Below the pieces are notes generated by a model. The model had not been told where the DNA came from. It saw only the letters and a list, made by a program, of their open reading frames with translations, and made no database searches. 64,000 nucleotides of DNA from Pseudacidovorax intermedius (GTDB taxonomy: Bacteria > Pseudomonadota > Gammaproteobacteria > Burkholderiales > Burkholderiaceae_C), in NCBI RefSeq assembly GCF_003350475.1, contig NZ_QQAV01000014.1:1-64000 (forward strand), written 5' to 3'. Shown piece by piece: positions 13,437 through 58,829 of this stretch. Positions within the stretch are counted from its first letter, which is position 1. The number at the start of each line of letters is the position of its first letter. A program made the position numbers and the translations under genes.

Positions 13437-13560
13437 GGGCAACGGTCGAGGTGAGGTGGGACCGGCAGCAAAGCGCTAAGCCCGGCGGAAGGTTGATTAC
13501 CGCCCCTGGAGCCGGGCTCGGCGGTTTGCCGTTGCGCCTCGGCTCGACCGAGGGGTTAGG
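13437..13560 (-). repeat. attC recombination site (outermost cassette)
   Basis: On the minus strand R'' is GCCTAAC (13560-13554), followed by L'' GGTCGAGCCGAGGCG. At the far end L' appears as the complement of GGTCGAGGTGAGG, and R' is GTTGCCC (degenerate against GTTRRRY). L'' and L' are nearly complementary, giving the folded attC stem. The TAA stop of the cassette gene at 13556 is part of R''. Confidence 0.8.
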
Positions 13561-14494
13561 CCGCGCCCTCGGCTCTCGCAGTCCGAAACTGCTCATCAAC
13601 GAAGTCTCGAAACGCAATTGCGTCTTCTCTATCCCGGATAGCGAAGGTCGGACGATCCCTCAAAGTACTTTGGTCGACTCCGATTTCCAGCCGCTCCAAG
13701 TTCCGCTTAGCAACGGCTTTCGAATGGTTTGCCATGTCATCAATAGCTACAAGGCCCCTGAGCGCTGCTGCTGCAAGAAGTGCGTTGTCATTTGACGCTC
13801 TTCCGAACGCGAGCAGCATGTCTGCGAATTGCATATATGACAAACTCTCGCCAGCAGCGGCGATAGCAGCCGCAAGCCTGTCGTCGCGCGTGGCCAGAGC
13901 GATATACGCAATGGCGGAGCGCCTCTCGGCGCCGAAAACATTGGGCAAACGCCTGAGAGCGATGAGTGCCATTGCTAGAACTGACGCCCCAGCCGCAAGC
14001 GCGGAAAAGATCGAATCGCGCAATGGAAGCACACTTGCAGTTGCCTTCGCAGTCACTCCAAGGGTTTCGTCACTTCTGGTGAAGAACTTCGGAGTGCCCA
14101 ATGGTTCAGTGCCCTTAACCAAAGCAGACACTGAGAAGGACTCTGTCGGCAATGCTCTACTCAACCTAAGCGAAACCGCGTTGTCCGTTCTGTGAGAGTC
14201 AATTTGAAGGCCACTCTTGTTGTCAATGGAATGGGCCAGCAAGGTGGCTCCAGGAACGGAGAGTTCAGCAGTAACCGAATTCAACGCCTTTTTTCCCGAA
14301 TTGACTACTCGAACTGAGATGACTTGTTGCACGGCCCCATCCGCAGATATCTGAGGTCCTGTTGTTAAATAGTACTCTAGACTCGACTGCGTCTCGAAAA
14401 AAATCTCATATGCCTTCGGTGCCACGGTAAAGATGCCGGCTATCAAGGCAGGCAGAATGGCATAGAGGAAGACTTGGCGGATGTCGAGCTTCAT
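13556..14494 (-). CDS. Integron cassette protein, two predicted membrane segments, unknown function
   Basis: Encodes 312 aa. A hydrophobic helix spans about residues 9-27 and a second about 162-182, with an extracytoplasmic beta-rich segment likely between them and a soluble Arg/Ala-rich C-terminal half of about 130 residues. I recognise no family. The start at 14494 lies 46 nt after the cassette boundary (GTTGGGC at 14546-14540), and the stop TAA sits inside the attC R'' box, so the gene fills the cassette. GC is clearly lower than in chromosomal neighbours. The topology (sensor or anchor plus cytosolic domain) would be compatible with a stress or defence role, but nothing demonstrates it. 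Confidence 0.75.
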   Translation of the reverse strand: MKLDIRQVFLYAILPALIAGIFTVAPKAYEIFFETQSSLEYYLTTGPQISADGAVQQVISVRVVNSGKKALNSVTAELSVPGATLLAHSIDNKSGLQIDSHRTDNAVSLRLSRALPTESFSVSALVKGTEPLGTPKFFTRSDETLGVTAKATASVLPLRDSIFSALAAGASVLAMALIALRRLPNVFGAERRSAIAYIALATRDDRLAAAIAAAGESLSYMQFADMLLAFGRASNDNALLAAAALRGLVAIDDMANHSKAVAKRNLERLEIGVDQSTLRDRPTFAIRDREDAIAFRDFVDEQFRTARAEGAA

Positions 14495-14539
14495 TTGCGG
14501 CTATTGTGCCGTGTCCGCGAAGCCGAAGGTACGTGCGCG

Positions 14540-14660
14540 GCCCAACGTTCGAGGTATGGCGGGACCGACGGCGAGGCAGCCGTGCCCGCCGCCCGGATGA
14601 TAAGGACAAACGGGGCAGACTGGCTTGCCGTTGGGCTTCGCCTCGACCGCGGGGTTGGGC
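14540..14660 (-). repeat. attC recombination site, well preserved
   Basis: On the minus strand R'' GCCCAAC (14660-14654) and R' GTTGGGC (14546-14540) are perfect complements and fit RYYYAAC/GTTRRRY. Inside them L'' (GGTCGAGGCGAAGC) pairs with L' (complement of TTCGAGGTATGGC), leaving a long GC-rich apical part. The total of 121 nt is within the range of chromosomal attC sites. Confidence 0.88.
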
Positions 14661-14702
14661 GTCAGTGCGGCGTGGTTCGCAGTTGACTCAAGAACTTGAT
14701 TG

Positions 14703-15290
14703 CTACTGCTTGCCCGAACTCCGGCATCGACTCTGGCCAGTTGTAGTACATCCCTTCCAGTGGATGCTGCTGAGGTAGTCATGTAGGGCGACGGCACACT
14801 CATGGACGATCTTGAGTTCAGGCCCCGCCTCATGTTCGTAGTAAGGGCCGAAGTGCACAACCCACTTGTTCCGGAAGTCCAGGACCTCCTGCTGGTACCG
14901 GAGGAAACCGTCTCGATTGACCGAGAGACGATTGAACAGGAATGACCTAAAGCCTTGGTGATCCTTGACGACTCGCCTCCAGTGGCAGTCCTCGTTGTCA
15001 ACCCAAAGATCTTGTACCAGTTGATGATGGTGTCGTAGAGGAGCACGTTGTTGAGATGTCGAAACGGTAGGAGCGCTTCCTCGCGAGTGCCCCGAGCATG
15101 TCTTTTGAGGAAAGCTAGCGTGGTTGACAAGGATGAACGGTGTTGTGTCCTTTGTGGAGTCCAAACCGGCAAGTTTGCCAATGCAGACATTTAAGAACGT
15201 TCCGAGCGACGCCCATAGCGCAGTGACGCGGCCAAGTTCAACCAAATAAGCATCCGGTAGCGGCCAGTCGGTTTTGTAGGAAGAAATCAT
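14703..15290 (-). pseudogene. Frameshifted integron cassette gene
   Basis: Coding-like sequence is spread over three minus-strand frames. From ATG 15290 one frame reads MISSYKTDWPLPDAYLVELG to about 15105. A second frame then gives a KDMLGAL-like continuation, and a third EEALLPFRHLNNVLLYDTI around 15080-15010. The first frame resumes near 15010 through LDFRNKWVVHFGPYYEHE to a stop at 14703. That stop lies 43 nt before attC R'' (14660), as expected for a cassette gene. Two or more indels therefore seem to have broken one gene of about 195 codons. An alternative is one intact but peculiar 203-aa product in the first frame (start 15314 or 15290). The family is not recognised. Confidence 0.55.
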
Positions 15291-15314
15291 CGGCGTATGT
15301 TTACTTGGCCTCAC

Positions 15315-15765
15315 GGCCAGGTGAACCGGCGCCGAACCCGAAGCCGAAGCCTAAGGAGGAGGGCACCAATACTGTCCATAAATAGTGAAGCCATATGGCC
15401 AATATGGGCCTCCGCGCTGAACCGGCAGCTAGCCCTCATTTAACATTAAAATTCCGCCAATCGCCGTTGTATTCCACTGTAGTTAGTGTCGGCAAATCAT
15501 TCGTTCTATTTTTCACGCAGATGCTGAGAAGTTTTATCTAGTAAACTCAATTTCAGTACTAGCGAAGTTTTGATAGAGCCAAAGGAAGAAATTTCGCTAC
15601 CGCCGCTTTCCAGCCTCAAACGAGCCCGGAAGCACTAGTGTCAATTTTGAGTTGACCGGCTTCTTGATTTTCTTAGGGCCTGTTTGCGAGGCCCTTTTTT
15701 TCCATGAGCTCATTAGCTAGAGCGCCCAGCCGGTGCCTCACGTTGCGGGTCCGATTGACCAAGGG
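15315..15765. other. Gene-free spacer between cassettes
   Basis: This 450-nt stretch has no coding signal and is AT-richer than the rest of the window. It holds the degenerate attC of the first cassette at its right end (15635-15772), a strong hairpin plus T-run (15675-15701), and an unassigned remainder that includes the interrupted palindrome CCATATGGCCAATATGG near 15392. It may be the remains of one or more decayed cassettes. Confidence 0.55.
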
Positions 15766-15772
15766 GTTATGC
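15635..15772 (-). repeat. Degenerate attC-like site of the first cassette
   Basis: R'' is GCATAAC (15772-15766), followed by CCCTTGGTCAATCGG, the same layout as the two other sites. The distal half (GCCGGTCAACTCAAAATTG near 15635) recalls an L' box but lacks a proper GTTRRRY. R'' is the exact complement of the cassette's leading GTTATGC, which supports the assignment. The distal end is uncertain. Confidence 0.55.
15675..15701 (+). terminator. Perfect 7-bp hairpin with T7 run
   Basis: AGGGCCT and AGGCCCT flank a 7-nt loop and are followed by seven T on the plus strand, an ideal intrinsic terminator rightwards. No plus-strand gene precedes it. It lies inside the attC-like spacer and could instead form the apical part of a long attC. 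Confidence 0.5.
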
Positions 15773-16513
15773 GTCAACGGAATCAAAGAGCACTGACCGA
15801 TTCTTCTCAATCGCCTTTGAGAGCTTCTCCTTCAATTCCTCATGGTTGGAGAAAAAGTTCATATTCATGTGAATGTCAAAGTGAATCTTTGTTGGGGTTC
15901 CTGGCTTTGCGACGCTTTGCTTGCTTGCCACGTAGATGACCTTCTTTCCAAGCGCCTCAGCGAATCCAGCTTCGAAGTAGCAGGACGGCCGCTCATCCGT
16001 CAGATCAGCGACGACGAACTGCGCCCCGCGAATTTCCTTCTTAATTCGGCCGACCAAGTCCTCAAGTGCGTGCTCCTTGTCAATGCGAATTGCAACCGCA
16101 CCAGCCTCCGAGATCACGCCTTCGATCGCCTCAAAACGCAGGTCGTACTCTTTGAAGACTCGCTGTTGCTCTTGGTCTCCGTGCTTCTCGCCTTGGATCG
16201 GCGTGATGATGAACACTTTGGGCTTGTTGGAAGACAGTAGTGCAGCCGCTTTGTCGCCAAACCGCTTGTAGACGTTCTTCTTGCCTTTGATGACATCCGA
16301 GATTGGACCTCTGACCTTGTTCCAAGGCTCCTTGGTCTCATAGATTCGAAGTTCGAGTACTTGGTACGACTGAACCTTTGCACCCCACTTGGCGGTGATG
16401 ACACCACTTGCGATGAAAGGCAGCACTATCTCCGACAAGACCTCGGCCTCTGATCGGTTGGGAATCGTCTTTTGACGATCACCTGAAAGGATTGCGATGG
16501 TTTGAAACGTCAT
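15767..16513 (-). CDS. Cassette-encoded nucleoside-deoxyribosyltransferase/TIR-like domain protein
   Basis: A 248-aa protein. The C-terminal ~150 residues begin KVFIITPIQGEKHGDQEQ and carry FVVADLTDERPSCYFEAGFA followed by EALGKKVIYV. This matches the Rossmann-like fold shared by nucleoside 2-deoxyribosyltransferases and TIR-related proteins (VxDLT...N/S-x-YFExG pattern). Members of this superfamily cleave N-glycosidic bonds of nucleosides or NAD and recur as effectors in bacterial immune systems. The N-terminal ~95 residues match nothing I know and may sense a trigger. The ATG at 16513 is chosen because it lies 42-48 nt past the cassette boundary; an upstream ATG at 16591 would cross it. The TAA stop is part of attC R''. 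Enzyme activity and a defence role are inferred. Confidence 0.72.
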   Translation of the reverse strand: MTFQTIAILSGDRQKTIPNRSEAEVLSEIVLPFIASGVITAKWGAKVQSYQVLELRIYETKEPWNKVRGPISDVIKGKKNVYKRFGDKAAALLSSNKPKVFIITPIQGEKHGDQEQQRVFKEYDLRFEAIEGVISEAGAVAIRIDKEHALEDLVGRIKKEIRGAQFVVADLTDERPSCYFEAGFAEALGKKVIYVASKQSVAKPGTPTKIHFDIHMNMNFFSNHEELKEKLSKAIEKNRSVLFDSVDA

Positions 16514-16554
16514 GCTTCGATTTCCCGGAGATGTTGGTGGTGGACGCCTTTGAC

Positions 16555-16744
16555 GCATAACGTGTTCCCGGAAGACAGCTAACGCTGCCAATGCAGACGT
16601 ACTGCGCCTTAAATCGGCACGCTTGCCTCACTGTAAGCCGTCGAGGCGCCACGAGATTCTCCCATCTGAATATGCGTTTACAGTACTCAACTGCCTATCT
16701 AAAGGCAGCCTTAAGACAACACCTCGCTGAGGCCGGCAGGCCGC
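16555..16744 (-). promoter_or_regulatory. Probable attI side of the integron / cassette promoter region
   Basis: GTTATGC on the minus strand (16561-16555) is the junction of the first cassette. The 180 nt between it and the intI remnant is where attI and the cassette promoter Pc normally lie. I find no second recognisable integrase-binding box and no strong -35/-10 pair. The region is assigned by position. Confidence 0.45.
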
Positions 16745-16822
16745 ATGGGGAGCACCCACGATGCCAGTTGTGCTAGCCGCTGCGGCCTCTCGGAAGTGCC
16801 TGCCCGCGGGCCCAATCTGGAT

Positions 16823-16969
16823 CTGCCGCCACTGCGCGCCACGCGGGTGCTAGACCAGTTGCGAGAACGCCTGCGGTTGATGCAACACAGCCTGCGTACC
16901 GAGGAAACCTACGTCTATTGGGTGAAGGCATTCATCCGCTTCCATCGGTTGCGACACCCTGCCGAGATG
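16823..16969 (+). pseudogene. intI: Truncated integron integrase (intI) N-terminal fragment
   Basis: Forty-nine codons read [20 protein letters not shown] and continue through [20 protein letters not shown] to RHPAEM. This is the N-terminal SAM-like DNA-binding domain of IntI tyrosine recombinases, very close to IntI1. Resemblance stops abruptly at 16969, and the catalytic domain with its Arg, His and Tyr residues and the IntI-specific insert is absent. An in-frame ATG lies at 16745, but codons before 16823 do not look like IntI. It points away from the cassettes, as intI should. The remnant cannot be catalytic. Confidence 0.88.
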
Positions 16970-17017
16970 AGTCGGGCCGGAGGTCATCCTGCACAGCGTG
17001 CAGCGCGCACCCCGCCC

Positions 17018-17046
17018 ATAAGAAAGGCCCGGCAATGCCGGGCCTT
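17018..17046 (-). terminator. Intrinsic terminator of the 43-aa membrane protein gene
   Basis: AAGGCCCGGC and GCCGGGCCTT form a perfect 10-bp stem around AAT. On the minus strand the stem runs into TTTCTTATG. It lies 45 nt after the stop of the small gene at 17091-17222. Confidence 0.75.
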
Positions 17047-17090
17047 GTTGTTGGTGCCTGCCAAAGGGTCAGGCTGCGTCTCTTCTGCGC

Positions 17091-17222
17091 TTACTTTGCA
17101 GGCTCGTGCTGCACATCCCCGCCGTGCTTCTCGCCACTCATGTCGACCTTGTCGCCGGCCTGCAAGATGACGAACAGCGAGAGGGCGGAAAACACGACGA
17201 AGCCGATGGCGATCTTCCACAT
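17091..17222 (-). CDS. Small single-span membrane protein (43 aa)
   Basis: The product begins [20 protein letters not shown], a membrane helix or uncleaved signal anchor, followed by a charged, glycine- and histidine-containing tail ([20 protein letters not shown]). A good ribosome-binding site (TAGGAGA) lies 10 nt upstream and a hairpin terminator 45 nt downstream, so it is an expressed unit despite its size. Similar tiny proteins with KVDMSGEKH tails occur in Burkholderiales beside transporters; I recall no function for them. It follows the MHS transporter gene on the same strand across a dispersed repeat. Confidence 0.75.
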
Positions 17223-42702: not shown

Positions 42703-44788
<2,086 letters not shown>

Positions 44789-45068
44789 GGGGGGATTCTA
44801 GGCGGGGAGGGCGCGCGTGGGCCAACGGTGTGCGCAGACACGCATCGGGTCACTACATTGAAGGCGAAGTCTTTTTCAGGCTGACTCCGGACTTTGACCG
44901 ATGTGTCCACCGTCAAGTCCTGTTTCTAGGAAGTACTTGAGATGAAAATTTGTATGCCTACCGGCCGGATTTGGCTAACCAACTCCAATGCAAATCGCTG
45001 GAGGTGGTATTAAAATCTCGGAGGCTTCTATTTACGGCGCGTAATATAGATCGGAATTCGATGCGCAA
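44789..45068. other. AT-richer spacer between thiC leader and the Septu-like genes
   Basis: About 280 nt with no convincing gene. GC content falls from about 70% to below 50% around 44950, marking the border of the inserted defence-like island. I see no terminal repeat or tRNA that would explain the insertion. Confidence 0.5.
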
Positions 45069-45920
45069 CTATGGAGCCGTCAATGGCCAATCAAGCGCAA
45101 CTGGAGCTCGCTCGAATAGTGCACGAATTTCCGGCAAGTATTCTTGCTGCCTTCTCATTTCATGAAATACCGTCAAGTGCGGAGTGCTCAACAGATCAGA
45201 TTTCAAAGCATCCAATTGAGCTTCCGTTGCTCCACTCTCAAACGCGACGGCGTACTCCGTCAGCCGCGCACGAAATCCACCGAAGGCATTCTCCCTTGAT
45301 GCTCGAATTACCTCCCGATTCAAGCCGAGAACATCAATAGTGAACACGGCTTTTAGCCGCTTGTCTTCAGGTATCGATTCCCTTGGCAGGAATTCAAACG
45401 TACCATCAAGCAACTCGCCATTTGGCAACTGACCGCCCAAGTCCAATTCCAAAAATTCCGTCGGGTCTTCCGTTCTTGGGTCAATAAGTGCCGACACCCC
45501 TGCTGGCGGCGGCAAGACGGCGGCATTCCTCTTGCGGAAAAATTCAATCAGTCGCCCAGCATGAATCGTTCCGTACCGATTTCGCTTTGGACCGTTGCAA
45601 GGCCCGCACGCAAAGCAGTGATTGGTCCAAACAAACGTCAAGGAGGGGAACAGTGATTTTGGACGAATGTGCTCTACTTCGTCTGCGAGCGAATCTTCGC
45701 AGTATGCGCAGCGGACGGGACCAATGCACATTTCTGCAAGCGTTTCACGAACCACCTTGAACGCCGCTCGGCTCTGTTTCGTTGAATTTCGTGCCCTCCA
45801 AAGAACATCTGCCTTAGTGACTTGCGCCTCATAGTTCGCCTCGCCATCGATCTCCTGTTGTAGATGACGAAGCACTTCTAGCGTTTCGTCAGCCAGATCC
45901 TTGTGACGAATACTCAGCAT
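45069..45920 (-). CDS. ptuB: HNH endonuclease, PtuB-like (Septu system)
   Basis: A 283-aa protein with an HNH core. C71-x2-C74 (RCAYCEDSLAD) is followed by VEHIRPKSLFP (His84), Asn100 and C105-x2-C108-N (CFACGPCNGPK), i.e. a metal-finger HNH nuclease. It starts 2 nt after the stop of the upstream ATPase. An AAA/SMC-like ATPase followed by an HNH nuclease is the two-gene layout of Septu anti-phage systems (PtuA-PtuB), also reused beside retrons; no reverse transcriptase is present here. GC is far below the neighbours, as expected for transferred defence genes. The nuclease fold is sure; the Septu label is inferred from layout. Confidence 0.75.
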   Translation of the reverse strand: MLSIRHKDLADETLEVLRHLQQEIDGEANYEAQVTKADVLWRARNSTKQSRAAFKVVRETLAEMCIGPVRCAYCEDSLADEVEHIRPKSLFPSLTFVWTNHCFACGPCNGPKRNRYGTIHAGRLIEFFRKRNAAVLPPPAGVSALIDPRTEDPTEFLELDLGGQLPNGELLDGTFEFLPRESIPEDKRLKAVFTIDVLGLNREVIRASRENAFGGFRARLTEYAVAFESGATEAQLDALKSDLLSTPHLTVFHEMRRQQEYLPEIRALFERAPVALDWPLTAP

Positions 45921-45922
45921 GT

Positions 45923-47206
45923 TTACAGCTCAACGTCTGAGGCGCGCGTTGGAAGCATTGACCTCAGTTCACTTAACCTCAGTTGCTGAGCAGAGTCTAG
46001 GTTGCCACGCAGTGCCCTTCTGTTCAGCTGCGCGAGCTCAGAAAGTAACTCTTTGGATTCATCGGACCGGGCAACGTCTCTGCCGAAAAACTCCGTTCCA
46101 TAAGCATCCAGTATTGAGCCATGAATTAATCTGTTCAAGTCAACACCTTCCACTCGCTTCGCCACTTCGTCCGTGCCTGGCTCTGGCAAACGCCACACAC
46201 TGTTCGCGTTCCTGCAAATGATCGGACTATGTGTAGTAACAAGGAACTGAACCATAGGAAAGCAGCGCGTAAACCATGGGCCAATTTCCTTCTGCCAAGA
46301 TGGGTGCAGATGTGCATCTACCTCGTCAATTACAACAATCCCTGGCAACCTAACTACGCCGCCACCAGTGTTGAGTGCAGTAAGCATTTCAGCCACCCCA
46401 TAGGCCTTCGTCATCTGGCGCAAGATCTCAAAGATCATCGACAATAATGATCTGTAGCCATCGCTCATTTGCTCCACTACCACTCGCATGCCCGCCGCAT
46501 CAGTAATGACGACTTCCTCGCTTCTGACTTCTGAAACCTGTGCGCCATGAGGCAACAGATCAGAACTGTTCAAAAACTGGACTAGTCCGTCCAACAGTCG
46601 GCCGTCGTCCACGTACTCCTCGAGCTGTTTAACACGCAATTCCCTAAGCCATCTTAGGCCTTCCGTCAAAGCGACGTCTTCACCAAAGGCCGACAAATGG
46701 GACGCAAGCCTAGGATTTGAGAAGAATAGTCGGTCAAAAGCTTGATCACCACCAGTGAATCTGCGAAATGGTCCAAACGAAGCAGAGAACCATCCAGCAT
46801 TTGTTCCCCAGATCGATCTAGCGGCCGTTTGCTGCCCTGTCGTTGCCTTTAACTCAAGGCGCGGCCCTCCAATTGATGTTTCAATCGGATTAAATTCAAG
46901 CGTTGCGTCAATGAGCGATGCTCGCCGACCGGTTCCGGTGAAGACATCTTTTGTGCCAGCTTCAATTTGTATTGTTATTTTACCGGGGGATGCGCCATGG
47001 CGTTGCCAAGTTGTCCAGTTCTGTCTAAGAGCCACTGCCTCCTTCGGCCCAGCCAGAGCCAAAGCGAGCGCGCGGACAACGCTTGATTTGCCAGCGCCAT
47101 TCGCCCCGAGAATTACGTGCCATCCACAAGCCTCGGAAGGGGTAAATCGGAGGGTGAACTCAGATATTGCGCGAACGTTCTCGATACTTAGACGGCGTAT
47201 GTACAT
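45923..47206 (-). CDS. ptuA: AAA/SMC-like ATPase, PtuA-like (Septu system)
   Basis: A 427-aa ABC/AAA_15-type ATPase. The N-terminal strand MYIRRLSIENVRAISEFTLR is followed by Walker A GANGAGKSS (residues 34-42), a short middle domain, an ABC signature-like MSDGYRSLLSM (247-257), Walker B VVIDEVDAHLHPSW (291-304) and the H-loop FLVTTHSPII (321-330). This is the OLD/RecF-like architecture of PtuA, which assembles with the HNH partner and restrains it until phage infection. An OLD-type TOPRIM domain is absent, consistent with the nuclease being supplied in trans by the next gene. Confidence 0.78.
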   Translation of the reverse strand: MYIRRLSIENVRAISEFTLRFTPSEACGWHVILGANGAGKSSVVRALALALAGPKEAVALRQNWTTWQRHGASPGKITIQIEAGTKDVFTGTGRRASLIDATLEFNPIETSIGGPRLELKATTGQQTAARSIWGTNAGWFSASFGPFRRFTGGDQAFDRLFFSNPRLASHLSAFGEDVALTEGLRWLRELRVKQLEEYVDDGRLLDGLVQFLNSSDLLPHGAQVSEVRSEEVVITDAAGMRVVVEQMSDGYRSLLSMIFEILRQMTKAYGVAEMLTALNTGGGVVRLPGIVVIDEVDAHLHPSWQKEIGPWFTRCFPMVQFLVTTHSPIICRNANSVWRLPEPGTDEVAKRVEGVDLNRLIHGSILDAYGTEFFGRDVARSDESKELLSELAQLNRRALRGNLDSAQQLRLSELRSMLPTRASDVEL

Positions 47207-47930
47207 GCTCCAATTCCTTTTCGGGCGCTCGCATTAGATTGTTTATCTTACCTCTAGCGCACCCCAACTATGGCATGGCACGAAATTTTTGGCGGGCTAC
47301 GCAAGCCAGCGCAGCGCGTTGAAGCTCGCCTTAGGGCTGGGTCGGGAAACTCACCGATGGTTGACTTCAGGCGCCACTCTTCCTGACCAGCTGTAGCAAA
47401 GCAACGTGCGGAACCCTATGTGGGCAGGCTTCAGGAACTGGGCGCTGATCATTTATGTTGGCCTATTTGGCCGACCGCTAGCCCAAGCGGACGTCTCCCA
47501 ACAACGGCGCCTCCCTTGCGTCTCCTTTAAAGTGACCCGCACCTCGCTCCGCAGCCTATTGGTGCTCGTTCCCGATCGCGATGAATGCCAGCGGCCGACT
47601 CAGTTCCCGGCACGCTGCAGTGATACCCCGGCCCCCGGCAGATCCAGCCGGTGCCACCCACCTACAACTCGCCCTGCGCGGCGCGGCGACGCAGGCGGTG
47701 AGGGCGTCTGCCTGATGAGCCGAGGCGGGCGGCGCCGAACTGAGCCGCCACGGTGTATCACCGCCAAGTGCCGCACAGGGACCACCGCGCGGCTAGCCGC
47801 CACAGAGGGCCCTCCGGGTAACTGCTGACCCCCCACCCCGCCCTCCCCCCTAGCATCCCCAAATCGCTCACATATTAGTGATCTGCCCCCCCGAGCGAGG
47901 CCCCAGGCAGTCACGACTCAGGAGACAGAC
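47207..47930. other. Gene-free stretch right of the Septu-like island
   Basis: About 720 nt. The first 250 nt are AT-richer and include the likely promoter side of the ATPase gene; the rest grades into host-like GC. Open frames exist on both strands (for example 47406-47828 plus) but their translations are low-complexity Arg/Pro/Gly-rich and match no family. I see no tRNA, integrase or direct repeat. Confidence 0.5.
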
Positions 47931-48908
47931 ATGGTGAAGCTATTTCGTTGCGTCCTCGCGGTCGCGCTGTCCGTGGTCGCGGGGGCCAGCCTGGCCCAGG
48001 AGGCCTATCCGTCCAAGCCGGTGCGCATCCTCATTCCCTACGCGCCCGGCGGCGGCGTGGATGCCGCGGCCCGCCTCGTGGCCCAGTCCCTGGGGACGGT
48101 GATGGGCCAGAACTTCGTCGTCGAGTCCAAGCCCGGCGGCAACACCGTGATCGCGGCCGAGGCCGTGGCGCGCGCGGCACCGGACGGCTACACGCTGCTG
48201 CTGACGGGCGGCTCCACCATGACGCTGCTGCCGCTCACGCAGGCCAAGCTGCCCTTCGTGCCGCTGAACGATTTCGCGCCGGTGGGCCAGGTGTCGCGCC
48301 TGCCCTACTTCCTGGCGGTCTCGGCCACGCAGCCCTACAAGAACGCGAAGGAACTGCTCGCCGACCCGAAGGCGCGCGACGGCGCGCTGGCCTATGCGAG
48401 CAACGGCATCGGCTCGATGGCGCACATCGGCACCGAGATGCTGATCCAGCGCGCCGGCGCCAAGATGATCCACGTGCCCTACAACGGCTTCACGCCCGCC
48501 ATCGCCGATCTGGTGACGGGGCGGACCGTGATGGTGATGGCCGACCTGGCCCCGCTCAACGCGCAGATCCAGGACGGCAAGCTGCGCCCGCTGGCCGTCG
48601 CGTCCGAGAAGCGCTCGCCCTTCCTGCCGGACGTGCCGACCCTGGCCGAGGCCGGCTACCCCGGCACCGAGTTCGAGGTGTGGCTCGCGCTCTACGCGCC
48701 CGCCAAGACGCCGCGCGCCGTGGTCGACAAGCTGTCCGCCGAGTTGAACAAGGTGCTCGCCAACCCCGCCACGCGCGAGGCCTTCGTGCGCCTGGGCCAC
48801 GAGGCCGACTACGCCGCGCCCGATGCCGTGCGCAAGCGCATCCAGGCCGAGCAGAGCGCCTTCGCGCCGGCGGTGCGGGCCGCCGGACTGGCCGCGCAGA
48901 CCAACTGA
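47931..48908 (+). CDS. Bug-family (TctC-like) periplasmic solute receptor
   Basis: A 325-aa protein with a signal peptide ending ASLAQ, then the Bug fold: YPSKPVRILIPYAPGGGVDA, the ligand loops GGSTMTLLP and ASNGIGSMAHIGTEM, and HVPYNGFTPAIADLVTG. Bug proteins bind carboxylates in the periplasm, sometimes for TctAB transporters. No membrane components are encoded nearby, so it is an orphan receptor. The next gene, a ThDP enzyme, starts 10 nt later. Confidence 0.9.
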   Translation: MVKLFRCVLAVALSVVAGASLAQEAYPSKPVRILIPYAPGGGVDAAARLVAQSLGTVMGQNFVVESKPGGNTVIAAEAVARAAPDGYTLLLTGGSTMTLLPLTQAKLPFVPLNDFAPVGQVSRLPYFLAVSATQPYKNAKELLADPKARDGALAYASNGIGSMAHIGTEMLIQRAGAKMIHVPYNGFTPAIADLVTGRTVMVMADLAPLNAQIQDGKLRPLAVASEKRSPFLPDVPTLAEAGYPGTEFEVWLALYAPAKTPRAVVDKLSAELNKVLANPATREAFVRLGHEADYAAPDAVRKRIQAEQSAFAPAVRAAGLAAQTN

Positions 48909-51357: not shown

Positions 51358-52218
51358 TCAGCCCTGCAGCCCCGCCACGTGCTCATTCACGATCGCAATG
51401 AACGCCCGCAACCGGTTCAGCCGCCGCAGGTCGCGGTGGTAGCCCATCCAGATCTCCCGGGCGGGCGGCTCTTCCGGTAGTTGCAGCCGGCGCAGGCCGC
51501 CCACCTGGTTGCCCACCACCTGCGGCAGCACGGCGATGCCGATGCCGTGGCTGCTCATGCGGGCCTGCACGTTGCGGTTGTTCGATGCCAGAAGCGGCCG
51601 GGCGTTGGGAAAGCGGGTCTTCAGCCACGCGATGTCCGGGAACTGGCCGGTCGAGGTGTCGTGCGTGATGAGCCGAAAGCCGGTGCCGTCGCCGAACACC
51701 GGGTCGGCTGAGGCCGTCGCGACGTAGACGCCGTAGGGCAGGCGCACCAGCTTGCGCTGCACCACGTCGGGCGCGTTGAAGGGGACGATCCGGAACGCGA
51801 TGTCGGCCTCCCGCTGCGCCAGGTTGAACAGGCGCGTGCCGGTCAGCACTTCAAGATCGACGCGCGGGTACGACCGGGCGTAGTCCGCAATGATCGGCGG
51901 CAGGACGAAGGCGCCGAACCAGTCGGCCGACGAGATCCGCAGGCTGCCCTGCAGCTTTTCTTCCCCGCCCGCCAGGCGCCGCTGCATGGCGAGCGCACCC
52001 TCCTCCATCTGCTCGGCCAGCGCCACGATGCCGGCGCCCTCGTCGGTGGGCACGAAGCCGTCCGCGGTGCGCTGGAACAGCGTATGGCCCACGGCCTGCT
52101 CCAGCGCCCGTAGCCGGCGCCCGATGGTCGGATGGCTCAGCTGCAATGCGCGTGCGGCACCGCCCAGGGTGCCCGCGCGCACCACGGCCAGGAAGATGCG
52201 CACATCGCTCCACTCCAC
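51358..52218 (-). CDS. LysR-family transcriptional regulator
   Basis: A 286-aa protein with the N-terminal LysR helix-turn-helix (FLAVVRAGTLGGAARALQLS and PTIGRRLRALEQAVGHTLFQ) and a C-terminal periplasmic-binding-like effector domain. Divergent from the SDR gene with a 122-nt intergenic region, it is the likely activator or repressor of the SDR-MFS pair. Confidence 0.9.
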   Translation of the reverse strand: MEWSDVRIFLAVVRAGTLGGAARALQLSHPTIGRRLRALEQAVGHTLFQRTADGFVPTDEGAGIVALAEQMEEGALAMQRRLAGGEEKLQGSLRISSADWFGAFVLPPIIADYARSYPRVDLEVLTGTRLFNLAQREADIAFRIVPFNAPDVVQRKLVRLPYGVYVATASADPVFGDGTGFRLITHDTSTGQFPDIAWLKTRFPNARPLLASNNRNVQARMSSHGIGIAVLPQVVGNQVGGLRRLQLPEEPPAREIWMGYHRDLRRLNRLRAFIAIVNEHVAGLQG

Positions 52219-56983: not shown

Positions 56984-57682
56984 TCAGCGGCCGGTCCAGG
57001 CGGCCAGCAGAGCGGGCAGCCGAGCCATGTCCTCGAACGTGGTCGCCGCGCCCACCGACAGCAAGGCCTGGCTGCCGCTGTGGCCCGGCCCGCCCGGGCT
57101 ATAGCCGAAGACCGTGGCGCCCGCGGCCACGCCGGCGGTGGCGCCGGTGACGGTGTCTTCCACCACGGCGCAGCGCGCGGCCGGCACGCCCAGAGCGGCG
57201 GCGGCGGCCAAGTACACGTCGGGATGCGGCTTGCTGCGCGGCGTCTCGTGGCCACTGAAGATGCGGCCTTCGAACAGGTCCAGCAGGCCGACCTTGGCCA
57301 GTTGCAGCTCGACCTTGCGCCGGTCGGCGCCCGAGGCGCAGGCGATGCGCCCGTCCAGTTGGCGGTGCAGCTCGCGCACCGCCGCAACCGCGCCGGGAAT
57401 GGCGACCAGCTCGCGTTCCAGCGCCTCGTTGCGTCGGGCCCAGAAGCGGTCGAGCCAGGCGCGGTCGATGCGCACACCAGTGCGCTGGTAGATCAGCTCG
57501 GCCTCGTCCTTGACCGCCTTGCCGATAAAGACCTGCATCGCCTCTTCCTCGGTGATGGGCCAGCCCAGTTCGTGGAGCATGGCCACCAGCACGCGGTGGG
57601 TGATCGGCTCGGAATCGACCAGAACGCCGTCGCAGTCGAAAAGCACGGCGTCGAAGGGAAAGGAGGGGAGAGTGGCGGACAT
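56984..57682 (-). CDS. HAD-superfamily hydrolase (phosphoglycolate phosphatase/beta-PGM-like)
   Basis: A 232-aa HAD subfamily IA protein. Motif I is VLFDCDGVLVDSEP (nucleophile Asp), motif II region IACASGADRRKVELQL, motif III lysine GHETPRSKPHPDVYLAAAAA and motif IV CAVVEDTVTGATAG. It dephosphorylates a small phosphorylated metabolite such as phosphoglycolate or a sugar phosphate; the substrate cannot be told. The start at 57682 gives MSATLPSFPFDAVLFD; an ATG ten codons upstream is possible. Confidence 0.87.
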   Translation of the reverse strand: MSATLPSFPFDAVLFDCDGVLVDSEPITHRVLVAMLHELGWPITEEEAMQVFIGKAVKDEAELIYQRTGVRIDRAWLDRFWARRNEALERELVAIPGAVAAVRELHRQLDGRIACASGADRRKVELQLAKVGLLDLFEGRIFSGHETPRSKPHPDVYLAAAAALGVPAARCAVVEDTVTGATAGVAAGATVFGYSPGGPGHSGSQALLSVGAATTFEDMARLPALLAAWTGR

Positions 57683-57750
57683 CGGGAGACGGCATGCACG
57701 AACGGGATGCATGGTGGCTGAAACAGAGCCGCCAGCTTAGCCGGCTGCCG

Positions 57751-58374
57751 TTACCTCAAGCACGGATTTTGCGCCATCGCACACCAAAGAAGCACCGGAA
57801 ACAACACGACGGTTCCGAGGATCAACGCCCCGTCCGCCAACACAGTCACTGGCGTTGCTGCTACCTTTAGAGCGGTCCCAGCAGCTGAGGACCTCTCAGT
57901 CACGCTCACGATGTACTCCCGCCTGAATTTCTGGCTGGCCGGACCCTTAAATTGATCAGTTGAATAGCGGGTGCCCTTCATTGCCACAGTTGCCTTCCAG
58001 CCGCCGCCAGTCAGCACGAAGCCTGAGCTCTCCACCAGTCGCTGCTGTGCAGGATCAAGGTCTGGCTTTAGCTCGAGATTGATCTTGCCTGTCACCGTGC
58101 TGCCGCCCTCCACTTCGAATTCCTCGAACTCGGCGTCGCGCGCAGCGCCGTGCAAGGCGGGAGCCAACATTGCCCTCAGTGCGGGAGGAGCCGCGAACAC
58201 GTAGTGATAGCTCTGGCCAAGGATGACCAAGCTGCTGCCATCCTGGTTAGCAAAGAAACCGTTTATCTGTTCCCAGTAAGTGTTTTGCTTGTACATGTGC
58301 TCAGTGATGCAGCCGGACAGCCCGACCATGGCAATGCCCGCGGCAGCAAGCACGTGGCGTCGATTCAAGTTCAT
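57751..58374 (-). CDS. Lipoprotein of unknown function
   Basis: A 207-aa protein with a lipoprotein signal. RRHVLAAAGIAMVGLSGC resembles a short twin-Arg leader with lipobox LSGC. The mature domain contains GSSLVILGQSYHYVFAAPPA and repeated beta-strand-like segments, ending in a hydrophobic helix (GALILGTVVLFPVLLWCAMA). No family recognised. GC is lower than in neighbours (about 57%). It stands alone between the HAD gene and the repeat-bearing spacer. Confidence 0.72.
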   Translation of the reverse strand: MNLNRRHVLAAAGIAMVGLSGCITEHMYKQNTYWEQINGFFANQDGSSLVILGQSYHYVFAAPPALRAMLAPALHGAARDAEFEEFEVEGGSTVTGKINLELKPDLDPAQQRLVESSGFVLTGGGWKATVAMKGTRYSTDQFKGPASQKFRREYIVSVTERSSAAGTALKVAATPVTVLADGALILGTVVLFPVLLWCAMAQNPCLR

Positions 58375-58829
58375 TGGTGTGGATCCTCCATATCGCGTCG
58401 CGATGCGTTGCATCGCGGCGGCCCTGCGGAATTCCTCGGCTCCGCCGTTAAGCGCTGCCAGCCTGGGCGGGTGCCGGACCCTGGCGCGTCGCGTCCACAC
58501 GGCTGCGCAACGGTACTTCCGTTGCCTCGATGTGGAATGGCAGGGGCGGACTATCCGGGCTGGCCAAAGCAGGCGCAAGGAACTACGCCGCAGCCGGCCG
58601 CAGATGATCTTGCTTCCAGAAACGGGGCAGATGCACGCGCTGCAGCGCCCCTGGCGCTCGATTCCCGTCAGTCGACATGTTGGCTGTGAGTCACTCAACC
58701 CGTTCGCCCTGAGCTTGTCGAAGGGCTTTTGTCAGGTTTCGACAAGCTCAGCCCGAACGGACTTCGGTGAACTGCCTGGCAGTGCGCCTGGGCCTCGGGG
58801 TCAGGGGCCTCGGTCTGCGGTTCAGGCCC
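58375..58829. other. Intergenic spacer carrying a REP-type element
   Basis: The 455 nt hold no credible gene. The left part is upstream of the lipoprotein gene. The right part contains the inverted repeat at 58700-58760 and then host-like GC-rich sequence leading to the stop of the citryl-CoA lyase-like gene. Confidence 0.6.
58700..58760. repeat. Complete REP-type inverted repeat
   Basis: Arms CCGTTCGCCCTGAGCTTGTC (23 nt in all, 58700-58722) and its complement with one difference (58738-58760) flank a 15-nt loop. It is the same family as 32260-32319 and 3828-3850. Between two convergent 3'/5' gene ends it could act as a hairpin in RNA or simply as a mobile repeat. Confidence 0.92.

Follow-up and report, generated by a model that had tools for sequence, protein, structure and literature searches.

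Septu is a known and widespread defence system of which two types are distinguished, type I consisting of ptuA and ptuB and type II adding a reverse transcriptase, as outlined in PMC8565338. In the two-gene PtuAB system Septu EcB88, the variable loop of tRNA-Tyr is reported to be cut on infection, and substitutions at K43 or D316 of PtuA, or at H75 or N91 of PtuB, are reported to abolish immunity (PMC13096335). The same report links PtuAB of retron-Eco7 (Ec78) to a loss of tRNA-Tyr and describes PtuAB of retron-Eco4 (Ec83) as likely not tRNA-targeting. A review (PMC12948488) presents Septu as a 6:2 PtuA-PtuB complex that degrades the phage genome, and ascribes degradation of ssDNA to the Ec83 retron-Septu.

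We analysed a 64,000-nt stretch of Pseudacidovorax intermedius DNA (the window), in which one gene pair adds another member to Septu and no new kind of system. Both open reading frames are intact and lie on the minus strand in the order ptuA, then ptuB, with a gap of 2 nt between them: ptuA (45923..47206) encodes an SMC/ABC-type ATPase of 427 AA and ptuB (45069..45920) an HNH endonuclease of 283 AA. The ATPase carries a Walker A motif GANGAGKSS (K40), the signature SDGYR at residues 248-252, a Walker B IDE (D294/E295), the DAHLHPSW stretch and an H-loop histidine, H326, within THSP. The residues C71-x2-C74, E83-H84, N100 and C105-x2-C108-N109 of the nuclease include its conserved Cys2-His-Asn-Cys2 core. 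Coordinates, strand, motifs and the 2-nt gap agree with a preliminary description of this DNA.

Comparison with PADLOC profiles identified the ATPase as PtuA (PDLC00269, E 9.3e-156, residues 1-422 of a 426-AA query starting at the second codon) and its HNH partner as PtuB (PDLC00340, E 1.9e-96, residues 1-278 of 283), in both cases over nearly the whole length. Given these E-values and the adjacent pairs present in other genera, the match is not a chance one. Pfam assigned AAA_21 and AAA_15 to the ATPase, and the Pfam HNH family scored under its cut-off on the nuclease (18.1 vs. 21.4 bits). Scores against the NCBIfam equivalogs of PtuA and PtuB from retron Ec78 also stayed far under the cut-offs (108.1 of 500 and 50.7 of 150 bits, respectively), which would be expected for a non-retron relative. 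Among solved chains, the PtuA profile matched Ec83 (E 1.3e-31), 8ee4 (1.4e-27) and Ec78 (2.8e-27), while the PtuB profile was nearest to retron Ec78 (1.9e-15) and also matched 8ee7 (6.4e-10); the similarity of the pair to the solved PtuA/PtuB of 8ee4/8ee7 is thus distant. AlphaFold models built from three-sequence alignments were poor (mean pLDDT 49.4 for PtuA and 48.5 for PtuB), and for this reason no fold search was made. The pair shares with Septu type I both proteins, their order and close spacing, the active-site residues and the absence of a reverse transcriptase. Judged by its sequence, it is an ordinary, complete Septu type I, rightly recognised as Septu in the preliminary description.

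An alignment of ten pairs, made up of the window pair and nine others including retron Ec78, revealed that the active sites are conserved. K40, S248-D249-G250, D294, E295 and H326 of PtuA were identical in all ten, as were C71, C74, H84, N100 and C105 of PtuB. C108 of PtuB was identical in nine, the exception being retron Ec78, which is without this fourth cysteine and also without both arginines of the FGPFRR block. Septu EcB88 can be likened to the window pair by description, not by sequence: it is likewise a two-gene PtuAB, its Walker and H-N-H motifs are intact in the window pair too, and the distance of 16 residues from H75 to N91 recurs from H84 to N100 in the PtuB described here.

The same two protein classes occur in other kinds of system. 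In a type IV (modification-dependent) restriction pair, an ATPase and an HNH protein would cut modified phage DNA, and hits to the PADLOC mREase_IV models are indeed obtained with both (E 4.2e-49 and 2.5e-19). The Septu models are, however, far stronger on both (E 9.3e-156 and 1.9e-96), there is evidently overlap between the two model sets, and we consider a type IV identity very unlikely. The OLD and Gabija nuclease systems share with the pair an ATPase of the same broad ABC-ATPase class, to which AAA_21 and AAA_15 belong. The partner in Gabija is a UvrD-like helicase. Here the partner is of the HNH type, the 20 Pfam families listed for the ATPase include no TOPRIM, and the Septu profiles cover almost the entire length, which makes an OLD/Gabija-like system barely conceivable.

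It could also be asked whether a retron (Septu type II / retron I-A) has lost its reverse transcriptase and left the pair behind as its effector half, as the Ec78 and Ec83 effectors consist of an ATPase and an HNH protein homologous to the window PtuAB. Retron PtuA and PtuB families match weakly, and the chain nearest to the PtuB profile is that of a retron. Nevertheless, RVT_1 had no match anywhere in the genome, in a search that was positive in three of 14 named control genomes. A search of 44600-48000 with Rfam under permissive settings gave the TPP riboswitch only and no retron RNA family, although some retron RNAs may be missing from Rfam. In Ec78, PtuA (550 AA) and PtuB (216 AA) are encoded after the reverse transcriptase gene; no reverse transcriptase is listed beside the pair in four plasmid homologues (L051-L054), as judged from incomplete gene tables over 3 kb on each side or to the end of the record, the homologues L002 and L003 being outside this check. 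Moreover, the branch leading to Ec78 PtuA measures 2.1 substitutions per site. A retron remnant is therefore exceedingly unlikely. The genome-wide RVT_1 search and the Pfam families of the ATPase bear out the absence of reverse transcriptase and TOPRIM on which the preliminary description had relied. The island is very probably a complete Septu type I that arrived by horizontal transfer, a confidence that covers its identity and class of mechanism and not its substrate.

By analogy, the window pair should act like the published PtuAB, with an ATPase oligomer controlling the HNH nuclease on infection. PtuA would form an ATP-dependent oligomer that restrains PtuB; phage infection would then release or activate PtuB, and the resulting cutting of nucleic acid would stop phage production, often at the cost of the infected cell. 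As for the substrate, we give tRNA-Tyr on the one side and phage or nicked DNA on the other about an even chance. The sequence does not settle this, with the PtuB profile nearest to Ec78 and the PtuA profile nearest to Ec83. In the one host tRNA-Tyr gene looked at, the variable arm is long but differs there in sequence from E. coli tyrT, so this comparison likewise leaves the substrate undecided. The pair is well supported as a Septu and belongs to a lineage far from those with solved structures, which makes it a useful test case for whether Septu in general targets tRNA or DNA.

Relatives of the pair are sparsely distributed. A scan of genome contigs for PtuA reduced 27 pattern matches to three loci: Brevundimonas bullata (71% identical over residues 1-420), Methylobacterium terricola (69% over residues 1-424) and a partial match of 34%. 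In the first two, ptuB follows directly after ptuA, and the order ptuA, then ptuB holds for the homologue loci L002, L003, L051-L054 and L006. Brevundimonas belongs to Alphaproteobacteria. PtuA matched 94 of 72,556 plasmid records, 15 of them with coverage of at least 80%; the first-ranked match among the best 40 of the 94 has 48.9% identity over 99%, and the only record with 60-80% identity lies outside these 40. In each of the four plasmid records L051-L054, the gene behind ptuA aligns as PtuB. None of the eight matching phage records covered 80% of PtuA, and five pattern matches in viral contigs yielded no relative. At E of 0.001 or lower, PtuA was found in eight of 60 genomes, its own included, the best other being 37% identical and also accompanied by PtuB. 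Within the genus, matches were confined to two of 15 genomes, namely its own and one weak (E 5.8e-5). PtuB matched seven of 369 genomes of the class, again with its own included (best other 41%). The PtuB profile matched 17 of 60 genomes, its own among them, mostly weakly and in the HNH core only; a second, marginal match to it occurs elsewhere in the own genome (E 9.8e-4).

The composition of the pair is foreign. GC content over ptuAB is 0.50-0.53 (about 52%) vs. approximately 0.70 in the flanks, which upholds the low-GC island of the preliminary description, and GC at third codon positions is 0.51 in ptuA and ptuB vs. 0.93 in thiC and 0.96 in the tctC-like gene. The lowest GC of the 64 kb (0.508, in 2,138-bp segments moved by 100-bp steps) falls on the Septu island, in the segment starting at 44901. 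This composition, the patchy spread and the finding of the nearest kin in Alphaproteobacteria together point to horizontal acquisition of the ptuAB island.

The Septu island (44807..47690, no strand; limits set by homology) has no counterpart at this site in four relatives compared. On its left lies the TPP riboswitch aptamer (44685..44793, minus strand; Rfam RF00059, 60.5 bits), which forms the edge of the variable interval, followed by a minus-strand gene (42703..44679) that we take to be thiC, a name that fits the TPP leader. The right flank is a plus-strand gene (47931..48908), presumably encoding a tctC/Bug-type solute-binding protein, with segments 91-97% identical in relatives. The preliminary description placed the pair downstream of the thiC leader; in fact ptuAB is transcribed toward thiC and therefore lies 5′ of thiC and its TPP-riboswitch leader, not downstream in the transcriptional sense. 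A pattern scan of 44680-47950 gave no sigma-70-like promoter (shuffled sequences average 1.4) and, on the plus strand only, two terminator-like sites (3.6 in shuffles). By eye, a candidate thiC -10 element, TAGAAT, could be read on the minus strand at 44796-44823, just inside the conserved left edge; the candidate -35 region would be at or across the left junction, where the scan gave no promoter.

To place this interval among relatives, we compared the 6.2-kb thiC-to-tctC stretch with 40 genomes, its own included. The thiC side had a match in each of the other 14 genomes of the genus, and five of these (G001, G006, G007, G009, G011) also matched the tctC-like side. Both flanks lie on one contig in four of the five, 4.8 to 10.4 kb apart vs. 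2.9-3.0 kb in the window; in G006 they are on different contigs and the interval is open at the contig break. In the five close relatives, homology on the left ends at 44806, 44807, 44806, 44814 and 44810, and in four it begins again on the right at 47801, 47772, 47691 and 47785, the tctC-like gene likewise closing the interval. As far as can be said from the part of the cargo ORFs on which the calls rest, G007 carries a 1,294-AA protein with an Avs2 match at residues 3-870 (E 1e-162) and no Pfam match; in G001, DarG (5.7e-124) and DarT (5.5e-73) accompany type I restriction genes; in the unclosed interval of G006, such genes are accompanied by PrrC (1.5e-103); and G011 and G009 carry a VgrG with a Tle1-like lipase. 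Hence a known anti-phage or T6SS module stands next to the thiC leader in all five close relatives, with four kinds of cargo. In G007 and G009 (L037, L038), a stretch lying between the cargo and the tctC flank is 89% and 85% similar, respectively, to 51362-51849 of the window, which we take to be part of a LysR-type gene region, as if it were a displaced remnant.

Such an arrangement resembles the Listeria immigration control region, described as housing diverse restriction systems at one chromosomal place (PMC10059834). The thiC site differs in being bordered by a TPP riboswitch leader and in the range of its cargo, which extends to other defence systems and to VgrG/lipase modules. Among the titles and abstract starts listed in literature searches on Septu, defence hotspots and riboswitch insertion, none described a thiC-tctC site, which does not prove that it is unpublished. 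Searches for mobility genes in six genomes gave 56 Phage_integrase matches (tyrosine integrases) and 19 Resolvase matches (serine resolvases), none of them on the contigs holding the site (C14 of G000, C3 of G001, C201 and C105 of G006, C75 of G007, C15 of G009 and C3 of G011). No direct repeat pairing both borders of the interval was detected in a repeat search, and the 64-kb window contains no tRNA genes.

As a control, chained alignments of the 64 kb to the four close relatives were inspected, G007 being covered only from 36849 on. Two-sided replacement was seen at 44807-47800 in all four and at 13445-16933 in all three relatives covering it; other gaps of at least 600 bp occur in one or two genomes each. 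The thiC interval is thus unusual yet not the sole variable place, being one of two that are replaced in every covering relative. Homology also stops at 44790-44816 in the nine remaining, more distant members of the genus (G002-G005, G008, G010, G012-G014), and the left border may therefore partly mark the end of conserved sequence and not a crossover. One ORF beyond the leader in each of these nine gave no PADLOC match at 1e-5; Pfam assigned them to acyl-CoA dehydrogenase (three), amidase (three), a TrbI conjugation protein (G005), EutB (G003) and TctC (G004). The varied cargo is accordingly seen in the close sub-clade only.

From these comparisons, the stretch separating the thiC leader from the tctC-like gene probably serves for the exchange of defence systems, and ptuAB probably entered it as one cassette swapped in between its two flanks. 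A bolder reading is possible, and we hold it tentatively, as somewhat short of probable: the sub-clade would have an integrase-free exchange site where complete anti-phage or T6SS modules swap by recombination in the shared flanks, the left crossover would always fall within the same few bases at the thiC promoter and thereby spare the riboswitch, and the PtuA here would represent a lineage that may act on something other than tRNA-Tyr or nicked DNA. We know of no experimentally tested member of this PtuA lineage. As a probable exchange site, the thiC leader is a place to look for further defence systems in relatives.

The other interval replaced in every covering relative, 13445-16933, is also low in GC and might be a second defence site. 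Its minus-strand ORF at 15767-16591 has a weak nucleoside deoxyribosyltransferase match (E 1e-4, under cut-off) and matches a PADLOC TIR effector model with E 1e-6. At the edge of this interval, a short ORF (16745-17170) contains a partial N-terminal phage-integrase SAM-like domain (PF13495, E 1.8e-9, residues 36-77) and is apparently a truncated integrase, which we guess to be of the integron type. Finally, approximately 1.1 kb at 57662-58829 of the window is nearly absent from all four close relatives.
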